Origin: a virus | IMG/VR virus record: IMGVR_UViG_3300009120_000072 | Span: 1 to 53,294 of that record | Reading direction: 5' to 3' (one strand) | DNA length: 53,294 nucleotides | Part shown: positions 1,576 to 37,817 of the stretch, one piece after another | How the letters are laid out: each line of letters starts with the position of its first letter | How positions within the stretch are numbered: the first letter of the stretch is position 1 | Notes under the pieces: generated by a model | What the model saw: only the letters and a program-made list of their open reading frames with translations | What the model was told of the DNA's origin: nothing | Databases searched by the model: none | Translations under genes and position numbers: made by a program

Positions 1576-1925
1576 GGGGGTGTCTTGGTTTCGACAGGAT
1601 TTCGTTTGATTCAGGGTGCAGTGGTGTGGCTACCTAAAGGCTAAAAAAATAACTGGAAACAGACTTTCTTTCGCTGCTTAATTAGCAACTAACAAGCTAT
1701 CAGCGCGTCCGGTACGGCTTTCCCATTGGGCCATACCCTGACGTCAGAAACGATGGGTAAGTGCAGAGTAGTTCGCTCAGCGAGGCTGCATCGACAATCC
1801 AGTGAGCAAATCAACGCTTGTTTGTCTATTTCTTAAGGGTTGATCAAAAGCAAATAGAATAAACTGTAGACCTCTGAATGTGGGACACTTCTTGGACAGG
1901 AGTTCAATTCTCCTCACCTCCACCA
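1576..1925 (+). ncRNA. ssrA: tmRNA (ssrA)
   Basis: The 5' end carries the tmRNA signature GGGGGTGTCTTGGTTTCGAC and the 3' end the matching T-arm (GGAGTTCAATTCTCC) and a terminal CCA at 1923-1925. The tag frame runs from GCT at 1640 to TAA at 1679-1681 and encodes AKKITGNRLSFAA, with the usual small hydrophobic AA end. tmRNA rescues stalled ribosomes and marks the unfinished protein for proteolysis. Its 3' end is a common prophage target, and here the last 12 bases are part of an attachment site. The mature RNA sequence is kept intact after integration. Confidence 0.95.
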
Positions 1926-3445
1926 ACCTTATCTCTTGTCACTTCCTTTCCAGTGGAAGTGATTTTTCTATTCTTGGCTAGCGGATCAAGTTTGAAATCA
2001 ATTTTGACTTCATCGTCATAGATGAGGATTTTGTCTACTAAAGCTTCAATGATTTCTCTTTTAACGTTATCATCAGCGTCGTTTAGTTTGTCTCGCAAAT
2101 CATACATGAAAAATTTGATCTTCTCAATTTTCAAGTTTTCAAAAGCATCAACATTAATTTGTTTTAATCTTGATTCGTAATGGTCAATCTGTTCCTTCAT
2201 TGAGTTTGTTTTTTCAACGATAGTTTCTTTTGAAATATTTCCTTCCAAATACAAATCAAATAGTTTAGTAACTTGAGACTTTAACAAGTCTCTTTTTTTC
2301 GTTAAATCCTTGATCAAATCCTTATTGATGAAAATAGCCTTATCAGCAATGTTCAAAATCATATTGGCTAGTTCTTCTATTTGCTCGTTGCCTAAAATTT
2401 CATTTTTTATCATATCCAGAACGTAATTTTCAAGTAAATCAGCTCGAATCCGTTTATTTGTGCATCCTGTTTTTCGCTGGCTGGAGTTACAGGCATAGTT
2501 AAAATACTTTGTTTCTCTATCTCTTCCAAGCACATATGAACCACCGACATATGCGGATCCGCAAGATCCACAGAAGAGCCTTCCGGTAAGCAAATATACA
2601 CGAGTGGCATTCTTGCGTGGTTTACTGTTTTCACTCAGCTTTATCTGAACGGAATTCCATAGTTCATCTGATATGATCTTCGGTAATGCTCCTTCAATTT
2701 TTGTTATTTCGTTATCCTTTTTAAAAACTCGATTGCCGGTCTTTTTAGACATACGTTTATTAAAAACATAAGTGCCGATATATTTCTCATTTCGCAATAT
2801 ATCAAAAATACTGTTCTTTCCGAATGTTTTATTTAATTTAGTCTTGAATCCCTGTTCATTTAACGATTTAGCTATTGCACCATAACCATAACCATTTGCA
2901 TACATTTCAAAGATAATACGCACAGATTGCGCTTCTGCAGGGTTTAATGTATAAATCTGATCCACACCAACATCAAAGCCTAAAGGAGGCACACCGCCAT
3001 TGTGTAGCGCTTTGAGAGCGTTCTCGTTCATCCCTTTACGAACTTCACGTGCTAAATTCATAGAATAGTACTCAGCCATGCCTTCCAAGACTGATTCTAG
3101 GATAACTGATTCTGGACTATCATCCAGTTGCTCAAGAACTGATACAATCCGCACGCCATTTTGTTTCAGCTCACGTTTATAAAAAGCGCTATCATATCGA
3201 TTGCGTGCGAATCGATCCAGCTTGTGAACGATTACTGCCTGAAATATCCCGAGCTTTGAATCTTTTATCATTTGAATAAACTGCTCTCTTTTATCAGTTG
3301 TGGCACTCATGGCTTCATCCTGATAGATCCGGACAATGTCAAATCCGTTCTTATCACAATAAAGTTTGATCGCTCTTATTTGCGCATCGATGGATTCCTG
3401 TCGCTGGTTATCGCTAGAAAAACGAGCATATACTGCAACTTTCAT
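1904..3445 (-). CDS. Large serine recombinase (prophage A integrase)
   Basis: This 513-aa protein has the serine resolvase catalytic domain at the N-terminus (YARFSSDNQRQESIDAQ, with the nucleophile serine about residue 10, and HKLDRFARNRYDSAFYKREL at about 115). A recombinase domain (GGVPPLGFDV) follows, then a zinc ribbon (CGSCGS ... C ... C, about residues 290-330) and a C-terminal coiled coil. This is the standard order for phage integrases of this class. The gene follows the exonuclease stop by one base (TAA-t-ATG), so it is probably translated by coupling from the repressor operon. The last codons lie inside tmRNA: the final EEN and the stop come from host DNA. On excision the same frame would continue to 36616 and give about 532 residues. 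Confidence 0.95.
   Translation of the reverse strand: MKVAVYARFSSDNQRQESIDAQIRAIKLYCDKNGFDIVRIYQDEAMSATTDKREQFIQMIKDSKLGIFQAVIVHKLDRFARNRYDSAFYKRELKQNGVRIVSVLEQLDDSPESVILESVLEGMAEYYSMNLAREVRKGMNENALKALHNGGVPPLGFDVGVDQIYTLNPAEAQSVRIIFEMYANGYGYGAIAKSLNEQGFKTKLNKTFGKNSIFDILRNEKYIGTYVFNKRMSKKTGNRVFKKDNEITKIEGALPKIISDELWNSVQIKLSENSKPRKNATRVYLLTGRLFCGSCGSAYVGGSYVLGRDRETKYFNYACNSSQRKTGCTNKRIRADLLENYVLDMIKNEILGNEQIEELANMILNIADKAIFINKDLIKDLTKKRDLLKSQVTKLFDLYLEGNISKETIVEKTNSMKEQIDHYESRLKQINVDAFENLKIEKIKFFMYDLRDKLNDADDNVKREIIEALVDKILIYDDEVKIDFKLDPLAKNRKITSTGKEVTRDKVGGGEEN
1914..1926. other. attL of prophage A (in the ssrA 3' end)
   Basis: The 13-bp TCACCTCCACCAA is repeated exactly at 36683-36695. The bases to the right (1927-1940, ending CTCTTGTC) form the right half of a long palindrome whose left half lies at 36658-36682. 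The integrase reading frame passes leftward through this site and stops in the T-arm of tmRNA. Confidence 0.8.
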
Positions 3446-3446
3446 A

Positions 3447-4547
3447 TTAAGAATCTCGTAGCAAAGTTTTAATATAAAGTATCCAATATTTCATATGGAT
3501 AAAAGCCTCACTTAACTCAGTTATATCGATCCAGTGAACACTTTCCTTTGTTAAAACTTGAATCTGTTTTTTTCCTCTAAGCTTAACTCTTCCAAATTGC
3601 ATCTTGTTAATCTCAAAATTCAAAGTGCCATTCGACATACGTCTAATTTCTATTTCATCAACTATTTTATTCTCTTCTAGTTGCAACATAAGTCTATCGT
3701 AAAATTGTTTTTCTTCATCACTAAACGAGTTCATCAGTTGATTCCTACCATATTCCTTGAGTTCCTTAGTGTTAATGTAAATTTCTTTACAAGATTCAAG
3801 TAATTTATGTGTAGTGTAGCAATCATGAAGTGATCTATGCGAAGAGTAATCTAAACCTAAGTATTTTTTTATAGTTTCGAGTTTATGATTATTAAGGTTT
3901 GGGTAATACTGACGAGCGTAATCAACTGTATCAATTACCGGGAAATTTAGTTCAAAATCATCTGTCAACCCATTTATTGCAGAAACTAAGAACTTCAAAT
4001 CAAATTCTGCATTGTGAGCAACTAACGGTGATTCCCCTATCATAGTTACAACCTTCTGAATTACTTCATAGATTTTGGGTGCTTCAGCTATCATTTCATT
4101 TGTTATTCCAGTAATAGAGATAATCTCATTAGAAATCCTTACTTCTGGGTTAACTAATGTTGAAAACTCTTCAACAATTAAAGAGTTTTTGACTTTAATT
4201 AATGAAACTTCAATAATCCTACTTTTCACTGGTTCAAAACCTGTGGTTTCAAAATCAAGAACGACATATTCATCAGGGAAAAAATCCATATATTTTTGGA
4301 AAGTAAGTCGCTTAGGGAAGAATAAATTGTACCTGTAATTGATTTTACTTCCATCAATTTCATTTGCTACAGTACTTTTAATCCTTGATTTTGATTTATT
4401 TTTTTGTTTAATCAATATACTCACAATAGCAAAAAGAAACACAAAAAGAAATGCAAGAAAGAACTCACCTGCTATCAAGAGACTAACAACAATCAGAAAG
4501 TAAAATAATCTGAAAAGTATAATCATTATTTTTGAAATGGTTTTCAT
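3447..4547 (-). CDS. Membrane-anchored DEDDh 3'-5' exonuclease
   Basis: The 366-aa protein begins with two hydrophobic segments (about residues 7-26 and 29-47), then a basic linker. A DnaQ-type exonuclease domain follows at about 93-255. All DEDDh catalytic residues are visible: D98 and E100 in LDFETTG, D183 in AHNAEFD, and H237 and D242 in HRSLHD. A C-terminal region of about 110 residues matches no family I know. The start overlaps the repressor stop (ATGA) and has an AGGAGG box, so it is made in lysogens with the repressor. Soluble DnaQ proteins proofread or trim DNA. Fixing such a nuclease to the membrane suggests action on DNA entering the cell, but that is inference. Confidence 0.85.
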   Translation of the reverse strand: MKTISKIMIILFRLFYFLIVVSLLIAGEFFLAFLFVFLFAIVSILIKQKNKSKSRIKSTVANEIDGSKINYRYNLFFPKRLTFQKYMDFFPDEYVVLDFETTGFEPVKSRIIEVSLIKVKNSLIVEEFSTLVNPEVRISNEIISITGITNEMIAEAPKIYEVIQKVVTMIGESPLVAHNAEFDLKFLVSAINGLTDDFELNFPVIDTVDYARQYYPNLNNHKLETIKKYLGLDYSSHRSLHDCYTTHKLLESCKEIYINTKELKEYGRNQLMNSFSDEEKQFYDRLMLQLEENKIVDEIEIRRMSNGTLNFEINKMQFGRVKLRGKKQIQVLTKESVHWIDITELSEAFIHMKYWILYIKTLLRDS

Positions 4548-5167
4548 AGAGCCCTCCTTATTTCAACCACTTTTCCAACAATTGTAATAGGCAATAAAGA
4601 CATCTGATCTTTATTATAAAATGTCTTATTAAATAGAGGATTGAGAGGAATCAACGTAATGCCATCATCTTGTATTAATACTTTTTTGCAAGTTGCTTCG
4701 TCTCCGTTTACCTTTACAATAGCAATACTACCGCTATCGACTGAAGATTGCTGTTTTATGATTAGTGTATCACCATCCTCAATACGAGGATTCATAGAAT
4801 CTCCCTTAGCTTTCAAACCAAAGAACTCGCCTTTTTTCGACATCTCAGCGGAGATTTCTTCAAAATCTATAATATTTTCTATAGCACTTATTGGAACGCC
4901 ACAAGGCACTTCACCTAACACAGGGATCTTAATTCCGGTCGAATTTCTAAAAAAACTTTTATCTTCAGTAAGTTCTGATTTGTAAACTCCAAAATAATCA
5001 GCAATCTGCTGAAGCCGATCAATTCTAGGATATTTTCTTCCATTAACCCAATCAGACACTGTCGCTTGGCCAACTTGTAAATCATGAGCAATATCCATTT
5101 GTGTCTTATTATTAATTCTCATATATTTACCTAAGTTTCTAGAAAAAACATCTCTGTTTTCAATCAT
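4544..5167 (-). CDS. CI-like repressor with LexA/S24 peptidase domain
   Basis: The 207-aa protein has an XRE helix-turn-helix (about residues 10-65, TQMDIAHDLQVGQATVSDWVNG) and a C-terminal S24 domain. The catalytic serine is S124 in KGDSM and the lysine is near K161 in EATCKKV. The expected self-cleavage bond is C89-G90 in EVPCG. Such repressors hold the lysogenic state and cleave themselves when RecA is activated, so SOS induction is likely. It is the first gene of a leftward operon with the exonuclease and integrase. Its operators lie in 5198-5272 and again at 5498-5530. Confidence 0.92.
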   Translation of the reverse strand: MIENRDVFSRNLGKYMRINNKTQMDIAHDLQVGQATVSDWVNGRKYPRIDRLQQIADYFGVYKSELTEDKSFFRNSTGIKIPVLGEVPCGVPISAIENIIDFEEISAEMSKKGEFFGLKAKGDSMNPRIEDGDTLIIKQQSSVDSGSIAIVKVNGDEATCKKVLIQDDGITLIPLNPLFNKTFYNKDQMSLLPITIVGKVVEIRRAL

Positions 5168-34345: not shown

Positions 34346-35347
34346 TTGGCAAATTTTACTTTTATTGATTTATTCGCAGGAATCGGGGGAATCCGCTTGG
34401 GGTTTGAATCAATTGGTGGTTCTTGTATATTCACAAGCGAATGGAATGAGTGGTCAAAGAAAACATACATAGCAAACTTTGGTGAAGGAGAAACAATTGT
34501 TGGTGATATAGTACCTTTCCCTTCTGAAGAGATTCCAGATCATGATGTGCTTTTAGCCGGATTTCCATGCCAACCTTTTTCTATTGCAGGTGTTTCTAAA
34601 AAAAATGCACTAGGTAAACCACATGGATTTGAGTGTACTACACAAGGTACACTATTTTTTGATGTTGCGAGAATTATTGCCGCAAAGAAACCTAAAGCAT
34701 TTTTGCTTGAAAATGTTAAAAATTTAGTTTCCCATGACAAGGGTAGTACATTTAAAATCATCATTGATACTTTAGAAAAAGAATTAGGTTACCATGTTTT
34801 TTGGAAAATTATTGACGGACAAGGGTGGGTTCCTCAACATAGAGAACGCATAATTATAGTGGGATTTAGGAATAAGGTTGATTTTTCATGGGATGATTTG
34901 AATATTCCAAGTGAACGCATATTACTAAAATCAGTATTGCATCCTGAAGATGGATCAGAAAAAACTGAACCACCATATACAACGGGTACTAATGCCAAAG
35001 TTCATTCAAAGTATGTCTTATCTGATAATCTATGGAAATATCTTCAAGACTATGCGGCAAAGCACAAAGCCAAAGGAAACGGTTTTGGTTTTGGTTTGGT
35101 CACAGAGAATGATATAGCAAGGACATTATCTGCACGATACTATAAAGATGGTTCAGAAATTTTAGTTTCTCGTGGAAAGAGGAAAAATCCTCGAAGGTTA
35201 ACTCCTCGTGAATGTGCGAGGTTGATGGGTTTCGATGATTCATATAAAATTGTCGTTTCTGATACACAAGCGTATAGGCAGTTTGGAAACTCAGTAGTGG
35301 TTCCTGTGATAAAAGAAGTTGCTCGACTTATGGAGCCATTTATCTAG
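34346..35347 (+). CDS. DNA (cytosine-5) methyltransferase, EcoRII/Dcm-type partner
   Basis: The 333-aa enzyme has the C5-MTase motifs in order: [15 protein letters not shown] (I), PCQPFS with the catalytic Cys (IV), ENVKN (VI), [11 protein letters not shown] (VIII) and [11 protein letters not shown] (X). It transfers methyl from SAM to cytosine. The next gene is an EcoRII-like endonuclease, so CCWGG is the likely target. It lacks the N-terminal extension seen in M.EcoRII. It has an AGGAGGTGG box and TTG-started coding; a CCTGG site lies at 34250 just upstream. Confidence 0.93.
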
Positions 35348-35366
35348 GAATGAGGGTGGTGAAAGA

Positions 35367-36581
35367 GTGAAAGAAGGATACTTATCTCAATACTTTAAAG
35401 GTATTGCTGTAAAAACCTTGAGCGCAGTAGAAGCGGATGTTACAAAAAGTCATCAACATGAATTTAATGGTGCAGCACCTTTAAAGAGAATTTTTAGTAT
35501 TGAAAGAAATAAGTATGAAGCAAACTTTATCTATCTAAATGATAATGACGATGAACCGGTTACGGATAAAGGGTACTTAACATGGTATGATGCAAGGGAA
35601 AATCATCCAACTCGAACAGAGTATCGAATGTATTTTCCTACTACAGCTGTATCAGTATGTACTACTGCCGGCGATACATTGTTTATTGGATTAAGGCCGG
35701 ATAATACTGTTTTAGTTGTTATTACTGAAAATGGATCAACGATTGGTAATCAGGTTCGTTGGTTGTTTGGTGTTGAAAATGCCTTATTTCCTAGTTTTTC
35801 TATCAGAGAAGAATTAGAAAGCGAGCAAGATAGAATTGCGTTTGCATCTAGATTTATCCTTGAAGAATTAGGGATTGAAGTAGAAGAGAATGCACCAAAT
35901 TATCTTGATGAAATGTTACATATATTTAATGGTAACTTTCCATCAACCAAAGAATTTTCACTATATGCACGTTCGACAATTAAGGACTTAGATCCTCGTG
36001 TTGATCCTTCAGATATCGTACTGATGGGGTGGATGGAAAGAGAAGAAATACTTTTCAGGACGCTAGAAAAATACTTAATAGCTGACCGATTAACCGCTGG
36101 GTTTAGTGATGATGTAGATGGGTTTATCAATTTTTCTCTTTCAATCCAAAATCGCAGAAAAAGTCGTGTTGGTCACGCATTAGAAAATCACATAGAACAA
36201 ATTTTAATATGCCGAAATGTTAGTTACGATAGAACAAAGATTACAGAGAATAAATCAAAACCGGATTTTATTTTTCCGAGCATAGCTAAATACCGTAATC
36301 CTAGATTTGACGAAACACTTCTCACAATGTTGGGTGTAAAGAGTACTTGTAAAGACAGATGGCGGCAAGTTTTAACGGAAGCTGACAGAGTAAGGCGGAA
36401 GCATTTGTTAACATTAGAAGCTGCTATAAGTGAAAATCAAACCAATGAAATGATGTATAATGAACTACAGTTGGTTGTTCCTAGTAGCCTTCACAAAACA
36501 TATTCATTAAGGCAACAACAGTGGTTGGTAACTATGGATGATTTTATTTCAATGGTAGTGGAACGCCAAAAAGTAGGATGA
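35367..36581 (+). CDS. Type II restriction endonuclease, EcoRII-like
   Basis: The protein is 404 aa, the same length as EcoRII. It has the N-terminal effector-type domain (about 1-170) and a C-terminal catalytic domain with HALENHIEQILICRNVSYDR, KPDFIFPS and MLGVKSTCKDRWRQVLTEADR. D300, Y309, K325 and K329 fall one residue from the catalytic positions I recall for EcoRII (D299, Y308, K324, K328). It should cut unmethylated CCWGG, needing two sites if it is of the type IIE kind. The GTG start has a GGGTGG box. It is expressed with the methyltransferase. Confidence 0.9.
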   Translation: MKEGYLSQYFKGIAVKTLSAVEADVTKSHQHEFNGAAPLKRIFSIERNKYEANFIYLNDNDDEPVTDKGYLTWYDARENHPTRTEYRMYFPTTAVSVCTTAGDTLFIGLRPDNTVLVVITENGSTIGNQVRWLFGVENALFPSFSIREELESEQDRIAFASRFILEELGIEVEENAPNYLDEMLHIFNGNFPSTKEFSLYARSTIKDLDPRVDPSDIVLMGWMEREEILFRTLEKYLIADRLTAGFSDDVDGFINFSLSIQNRRKSRVGHALENHIEQILICRNVSYDRTKITENKSKPDFIFPSIAKYRNPRFDETLLTMLGVKSTCKDRWRQVLTEADRVRRKHLLTLEAAISENQTNEMMYNELQLVVPSSLHKTYSLRQQQWLVTMDDFISMVVERQKVG

Positions 36582-36582
36582 T

Positions 36583-36606
36583 AAAAAGAGGCCGGAGCCT
36601 CTTTTT
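36583..36606 (+). terminator. Terminator after the restriction-modification pair
   Basis: A perfect 10-bp stem AAAAAGAGGC/GCCTCTTTTT with a CGGA loop, two bases after the endonuclease stop. Confidence 0.9.
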
Positions 36607-36682
36607 AAATTGATATTAATTTGCCTTACAATATTGATAGATATCTTTTCTTGTTCTGACAAGAGGTATGGTTAGGTACGGT

Positions 36683-36695
36683 TCACCTCCACCAA
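36683..36695. other. attR of prophage A / attL of prophage B
   Basis: Second copy of TCACCTCCACCAA. The bases to the left (36658-36682) form the left arm of the palindrome completed by 1927-1940. The bases to the right belong to prophage B, whose integrase gene ends 64 bases away. Confidence 0.75.
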
Positions 36696-36758: not shown

Positions 36759-37817
36759 CTACTTTTTTCTGATTGAGTTGATTACATCTGCGCTTTTCTG
36801 ATCGATATTTCTTAGTGCATGTGCATATACTTTTGATGTTATATCAATACTAGAATGTCCCAGTCTTCTTGAGACTGTTATCAGTGGAACATCAGCATCT
36901 AAAAGTAGAGAACCATTGCTATGACGTAGTTGATGGATTGTAATCTTTGGTCCACCATATTTACTGACCGCTCTTTCAAAATGTCTTGTAATTGAAGTGT
37001 CTGCGAGTGGCTCAAAACCGCCAAACAGAAACGGGCCATCAGTTTTCAATAGTGGTTTTAACGATTCAAATAGTTCGTCATCCATCTTTAACACCCGATG
37101 ACTTTTAGGTGTTTTTAGACTAGATAACCCTTCGAGACTTCTTGTGGCACCGTGTGGCAAACTTTTTGATATTGTTACTGTCTTGTTAGTTATATCAATA
37201 TCTGTTTTTAGTACAGCTCGTGTTTCCGCTCTTCTTGTTCCCAAATAATAACTAAATTCGAAATATTTTCTAAGAGTATCATTCTCAATGAATGTTAGAA
37301 GATGCTCAAATTGCTGGGGATCTATCACTTTTGCTTCGGTCTTATCTTCAAACGTCAACTTAAATCTCTTGAGAGACTTCGCGGTATCTTTTATATCATA
37401 GTCTATATACCCAAAAGATGTTATTGCTCGAATAATATCAATAGTGGAGTTCATTGTTCGAGTTGCGATTCCGAAATCAGTCAGCGACTCTCTCCACTTT
37501 TGGAGTTTTTTCGCATGGATTGGCAACTCAAGCTCTAGTATTTCTCCGGCATAACTTCGAAGTCTCGCTTTTTTCTGTTGTATAGTATTTTCATTTGCAT
37601 AGCCTTTTCGACTTGAGAAGTATCGTTCAGCCAAGCTACCTAAAGTGAATTTATGCTTTACTTCGCCATGATCAACTCGATAATTTGCTTCCCAATTTTG
37701 AGCTTCTCTCTTTGTTTCAAATCCTCTTTTCTTAATCGAACGAATTTTCCCTGTTGCATCACGGAAGCGAATATCTGCATACCATTTTTTTGTTTGTGAA
37801 TCTTTATAAGTGGCCAC
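36759..37817 (-). CDS. Tyrosine integrase of prophage B
   Basis: The 352-aa protein has an AP2-like arm-binding N-terminus (ATYKDSQTKKWYADIRF), a SAM-like core-binding domain (about 58-150), and a catalytic domain. Visible motifs are LGTRRAETRAV (first Arg), HQLRHSNG, LGHSSIDITSKVYAHAL (nucleophile Tyr). It inserts the phage at the ssrA 3' end. The start is GTG with an AGGAGG box. It reads towards the attachment site, whose core is 64 bases past the stop. Confidence 0.95.
   Translation of the reverse strand: MATYKDSQTKKWYADIRFRDATGKIRSIKKRGFETKREAQNWEANYRVDHGEVKHKFTLGSLAERYFSSRKGYANENTIQQKKARLRSYAGEILELELPIHAKKLQKWRESLTDFGIATRTMNSTIDIIRAITSFGYIDYDIKDTAKSLKRFKLTFEDKTEAKVIDPQQFEHLLTFIENDTLRKYFEFSYYLGTRRAETRAVLKTDIDITNKTVTISKSLPHGATRSLEGLSSLKTPKSHRVLKMDDELFESLKPLLKTDGPFLFGGFEPLADTSITRHFERAVSKYGGPKITIHQLRHSNGSLLLDADVPLITVSRRLGHSSIDITSKVYAHALRNIDQKSADVINSIRKK

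Follow-up and report, generated by a model that had tools for sequence, protein, structure and literature searches.

A described counterpart of the integrase considered here is DsiB of the Dehalococcoides ssrA islands, where the dsiB gene always overlaps attL and its ends diverge there, and where it was suggested that the full dsiB gene may be the circular one (McMurdie 2011, PMC3146451). The native tail was not identified in that study and the free form was not seen; unlike the element described here, the islands are not phages, and the DsiB module comprises a second, small serine recombinase, DsiA. In phage lambda, integration separates int from the downstream 3' control element sib (retroregulation), so that only the untranslated end changes and the protein is unaltered. 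Int of myxophage Mx8 is a tyrosine-type integrase that uses a tRNA gene site, and the segment replaced is much larger. As far as relayed in PMC6070905, attP lies inside int in Mx8 and also in Mx9 (Tojo 1996, Magrini 1999), and integration of Mx8 yields a recombinant int whose 3' end is replaced and which behaves differently. In mycobacteriophage BPs, attP lies in a coding gene and integration into a tRNA gene clips a C-terminal segment by means of a host-made stop (PMC9262239); there, however, a tyrosine-type integrase is at work, and it is the repressor that is truncated, losing an ssrA-like degron.

The window analysed here, i.e., 53,294 nucleotides of IMG/VR virus record IMGVR_UViG_3300009120_000072, holds a large serine integrase gene (int) that overlaps a tmRNA gene, and the features relevant to its integration are the following.

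1576..1925, plus strand: ssrA tmRNA gene (ARAGORN), intact in the lysogen
1904..1913, minus strand: host-encoded end of int (part of a Glu codon, Glu, Asn, stop), antisense of the tmRNA T arm
1904..3445, minus strand: large serine integrase, lysogen form, 513 aa (PF00239, PF07508, PF13408)
1914..1926, plus strand: attL core TCACCTCCACCAA, with the putative crossover dinucleotide TC at 1914-1915
1916-1925, plus strand: last ssrA bases ACCTCCACCA, probably phage-supplied, with the crossover set by attP symmetry
1916..1990, minus strand: codons of the disordered int linker, holding one attP arm (pLDDT ~40-45 in the model of relative L017)
1938..1963, plus strand: intrinsic-terminator-like hairpin for ssrA, antisense within the int linker
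3447..4547, minus strand: exonuclease-like gene (RNase_T), just upstream of int
4544..5167, minus strand: S24-type repressor gene, away from att
36582..36607, called on the plus strand: intrinsic terminator, downstream of the int stop in the circle (phage form) and separated from int in the lysogen
36616..36681, minus strand: separated int 3' end, 21 codons PYLTIPLVRTRKDIYQYCKAN plus TAA, rejoined in the circle, with homologous tails in L003 and L017
36658..36682, no strand assigned: second attP arm, overlapping the proximal tail codons (18/25 symmetry)
36683..36695, plus strand: attR core TCACCTCCACCAA, second copy of the 13-bp repeat

The integrase comprises Resolvase, Recombinase and zinc-ribbon domains in that order, all three scoring above the cut-off, with the catalytic N-terminal residues R8 and S10/S11 invariant among 40 relatives and cysteine residues at C292, C295, C318 and C327. 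The known large serine integrase structures, i.e., A118/LI (4KIS), SPbeta (9DXH), Bxb1 (9IU2) and phiC31 (9RAH), have the same overall fold and domains. The lysogen frame is open without internal stops and ends in DKVGGGEEN, and its TGA stop at 1904-1906 lies inside the antisense of the tmRNA T arm; the initial annotation had placed the stop and the GGGEEN end in this region, which is confirmed by the ARAGORN tmRNA prediction and by translation of the reading frame at 1904-3445. As in DsiB, this is a large serine integrase specific for ssrA, with a 3' end that overlaps attL and with variable C-termini among lysogens, and as in Mx8, within what the cited account of that phage conveys, attP lies inside int and the C-terminus is rewritten on integration. 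The two enzymes are nevertheless unrelated, since only serine recombinase domains are found in the integrase of the window and none of the tyrosine type that characterizes Mx8. In place of a DsiA-type neighbour, int is accompanied by the RNase_T exonuclease and the S24 repressor, and the repressor is not the gene that holds attP, as it is in BPs. Repressor, exonuclease and int lie on the same strand with abutting or overlapping ends and are probably co-transcribed, and because int follows the other two genes in this manner it is probably expressed in the lysogen.

The 13-bp repeat occurs in only two copies in the window, where 0.02 are expected. The attP rebuilt from them is an imperfect inverted repeat with 18/25 complementary positions (P = 3.6e-6) and with TC at 36683-36684 as its central dinucleotide, whereas attL and attR are far less symmetric, with at best 11/25 and 14/25. 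Such a short, roughly symmetric site with a central dinucleotide is the shape expected for the attP of a large serine recombinase. From this symmetry, the crossover most likely coincides with the left-hand boundary of the 13-bp core, which refines the initial annotation, so that the phage would supply ACCTCCACCA, the 3' end of the tmRNA. A C-5 cytosine methylase and an EcoRII-C-type restriction enzyme are encoded at the phage end beside attP (34346-36581, plus strand), a region that is likely a cargo or defence slot. Directly behind the same copy of the ssrA 3' end follows a second element with a tyrosine integrase (36759-37817, minus strand, and rightwards), the right end of which is outside the window; because the two elements adjoin in this way, two unrelated integrases seem to share the ssrA site.

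In the rebuilt circle the int frame comprises 532 aa and ends in GGGEPYLTIPLVRTRKDIYQYCKAN, adding PYLTIPLVRTRKDIYQYCKAN after GGGE before TAA at 36616-36618. That integration rewrites the C-terminus, from 532 aa in the circle to 513 aa in the lysogen, is thus found as had been predicted, exactly so for the tail and its stop codon. The further proposal that the excised form is the native one agrees with what is seen in four relatives. L017, an IMG/VR contig with an integrase 62% identical to that of the window, encodes a 535-aa protein ending in GGDKAYLTIPFVFSRLDMYDYFKMYQA, i.e., a free-phage homologue with the kind of tail foreseen, and because a GH25 endolysin, a small holin-like membrane protein and phage tail genes (holin and tail genes recognized by eye) lie beyond attP, this contig represents phage DNA in which attP is intact. 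The free-phage contig L056 (integrase 45% identical) also encodes a tail directly, and an amidase is encoded past its attP. L003 is a prophage that occupies another tmRNA gene and has both attL and attR; rebuilding from these sites gives GGDEPYLTLPFVRTRTQIYAYSKAS, the tail of which, PYLTLPFVRTRTQIYAYSKAS, is nearly the same as that of the window. The bacterial scaffold L110 holds the int 3' end twice around a 10-N gap, 90/90 identical (reverse complement, ~2915-3190), one copy with a symmetric attP and the tail AYRAISTVPKRT and the other joined to tmRNA and ending in GGGGGS; the sample apparently contained the element in both the excised and the integrated state, for which a scaffolding join is a fragile witness. 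If the L110 circle derived from that lysogen, the shortened form would still be able to excise.

The attP centre is shared by rebuilt L003 and by the sites observed in L017, L056 and L021, and by L110 to within half a base. None of the in-frame phage forms examined has an interrupted tail frame. Among the related free-phage contigs with attP at the 3' end of int, there is likewise none whose integrase terminates where the lysogen form does, the outcome that would have contradicted the initial annotation. The circle form is thus well supported as the native one by these contigs, and also by the terminator-like hairpin found behind the phage-form stop codon in the window, L003, L017 and L056. 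A pattern scan of viral contig DNA for GGTTGGTGGAGGTGAACC gave no match, a looser scan of the same DNA returned mostly unrelated genes, and a tail-specific pattern matched L017 and L003 only. Another relative, L002, was considered as an insertion in an AlwI-like restriction gene, a reading that was set aside; phage late genes follow its junction, but the site is asymmetric (9/25), and the locus was left out of the free-form count. Its integrase, 70% identical, ends in GGGDGSWNFNNWRKNTS without a symmetric attP (region 2590-3040), and a minus-strand reading frame that by eye resembles the end of an AlwI-type enzyme runs into the junction.

The lost tail is predicted to be a structured strand-helix element. 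In the AlphaFold model of the native L017 form, a disordered linker (residues 492-515, pLDDT ~40-45) is followed by a strand (518-522) and a helix (523-534), both at pLDDT ~77, and the crossover position is at the end of the linker, immediately ahead of the strand. An identical arrangement of strand (504-511) and helix (512-525), here after a short linker, terminates L005, an att-free relative from Sedimentibacter saalensis. On a small position-specific motif made from six att-free relatives chosen by eye, the phage tails beat their own shuffles (combined P = 6e-6, for tails that are not independent and with relatedness and sequence choice uncorrected), and the lysogen tails do not fit it (P = 0.67). 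Because several tails (L070, L105, L021 and L110) misfit the motif, several failing individually, the strand-helix is not strictly conserved, and the idea of strict conservation was dropped. The distal tails of the window and L003 differ by 3, 3 and 7 bases at codon positions 1, 2 and 3, which leans towards selection at the protein level on numbers too few for proof, and the tail residues beside the core are partly dictated by the symmetry of the attP DNA.

The spread of this arrangement was surveyed with the L017 protein as query in two genome samples, around Sedimentibacter saalensis and a Ruminococcus MAG, comprising 789 genomes. At about 30 of 50 loci (29 plus L094) the int frame continues into the antisense strand of a tmRNA (20) or tRNA (10) gene, and the lysogen ends are arbitrary antisense peptides of these RNA genes and highly variable, e.g., GGGGGSRTPVR. 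About 30 serine integrases thus appear to target tRNA or tmRNA genes in this survey, in contrast to the statement of a 2015 database paper that serine integrases are not known to do so. Following 14 lysogens 40-60 kb upstream for attR, we found that the rebuilt frames stay open for 15-35 residues and then stop in 7/7 tmRNA cases for which attR could be recognised and int is read in the GGG frame (L070, L075, L094, L098, L105, L106 and L109; with cores of 10-14 bases, each single case is weaker than the window or L003). No attR was found upstream in L068 and L107, and some tRNA elements gave ambiguous attR matches only. Tandem integrases beside attR were considered for L070, L094 and L105 and rejected, there being no second integrase gene at these places. 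The C-terminus swap is real and clade-wide.

Two further observations concern database records. Moorella phage MCACPph1 (L009, OR602863), described as a 'complete phage genome', has an annotated int C-terminus that is translated from host antisense tmRNA, and the record therefore appears to have been cut from a prophage. L161 (Dulem virus 37, a circular record) and L156 have other serine integrases, with a 17/25 symmetric site that precedes the stop codon of int by 94 and 61 bases, respectively; attP may lie inside int in further clades as well.

Integration exchanges not only protein ends but also transcript ends. In the window, L003, L017 and L056, the int stop of the phage form has a terminator-like hairpin behind it; that of the window, at 36582-36607, is possibly bidirectional, given a stem that is symmetric and flanked by A/T. 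After integration, the stop of int falls within ssrA and int converges on the ssrA promoter, and integration also removes the sequence downstream of ssrA itself. A terminator match is present at the corresponding place of the linker in L001, L003 and L017, and in these three and the window the linker hairpin is 13-16 bases past the tmRNA end; a hairpin within 130 bases was found at 12/33 sites, compared with 68/581 control windows in int (P = 4e-4). Because its codons hold both an attP arm and the antisense terminator-like hairpin of ssrA, the int linker appears to have three roles, as protein linker, as half of attP and as replacement ssrA terminator.

The best overall explanation, to which we assign a probability of roughly two in three, is that int is split by attP and loses the strand-helix and the terminator, and that integration is partly self-limiting. 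attP lies inside the 3' part of int, in the linker codons between the last β-hairpin and the C-terminal strand-helix, and virion or circle DNA encodes the enzyme in full (532 aa), with its own terminator behind it. When attP recombines with the 3' end of ssrA, the codons of the strand-helix are carried to the opposite end of the prophage together with the stop and the terminator, leaving a copy that encodes the 513-aa enzyme with two host-encoded residues at its end, and ssrA would gain in exchange a new CCA end and the terminator that lies antisense in the int linker. Since int is located downstream of the repressor gene and its product is probably present in the lysogen, we infer that loss of strand-helix and terminator may tune it down or towards excision after integration, and that integration would thereby become partly self-limiting; excision presumably works with the shortened form and a directionality factor.

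A serious alternative, with an appreciable if minority chance, is that the swap is a passive by-product, attP having crept into the int 3' end so that the tail is dispensable and both forms are alike. The att sites of large serine integrases adjoin int, most of the enzyme is encoded upstream of the cut, the lysogen tails vary widely, the phage tails of L021, L105 and L110 are degenerated, and L110 suggests excision with a shortened form; however, the predicted fold of the tail and its recurrence in an att-free relative argue against dispensability, as does the open tail frame of the in-frame phage forms. It is rather unlikely that the regulated entity is the end of the RNA and not the protein, int losing its terminator and 3' UTR on integration and transcription running antisense into ssrA. 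The hairpins behind the int stop in phage forms, the convergence of lysogen int with the ssrA promoter and the parallel of lambda int separated from sib are consistent with such control, which leaves the strand-helix unexplained and is otherwise compatible with the best explanation.

The loss could also be more drastic, the 513-aa form being inactive and excision needing full-length integrase from another copy, i.e., a superinfecting phage or a tandem element. The lost element is indeed predicted to be structured and is conserved in part of the family, but most lysogens would then be stranded, the L110 circle stands beside a lysogen copy ending in GGGGGS, and the lysogen frame is kept open, which together make this improbable. 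We give the least credence to the phage-form tail as a degron that keeps the integrase short-lived in infection and is removed on integration: the BPs repressor provides a precedent and some phage forms end in small residues (MYQA in L017, KKSA in L056), however, the ends KAN in the window and KAS in L003 are not ssrA-tag-like, and a tail that is predicted to be folded and that also terminates an att-free integrase is hard to reconcile with this role.

With the precedents of DsiB, Mx8 and BPs, the phenomenon is not categorically new. The ssrA overlap has been known for DsiB since 2011 and the change of tail on integration for Mx8 Int; the present analysis adds which sequence forms the native tail, how it is predicted to fold and how it relates to the family, together with the free-phage witnesses, the spread over tmRNA and tRNA genes and the terminator exchange. 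By analogy, the present data may answer the question raised by DsiB in 2011 as to the place of the native stop codon. They also carry a warning, as prophage-derived int sequences of this clade, whether annotated in genomes or mined as tools, carry host-encoded C-termini and are without their native end.

What sets the direction of the reaction is the central question in work on serine integrases, also where they are applied as genome tools. The phage and lysogen forms are naturally matched pairs of enzymes that differ only by the C-terminal element, and the role of this element is therefore directly testable. We tentatively extend the preferred reading of a split int to a large Bacillota clade, in which a detachable strand-helix would be encoded across attP, its loss would act as a one-way latch and the linker would serve as replacement ssrA terminator; if true, the latch would bias the integrase towards excision or rest. 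Because the same swap occurs in many related elements, the exchange of tails may serve as an inherent switch of the integrase.
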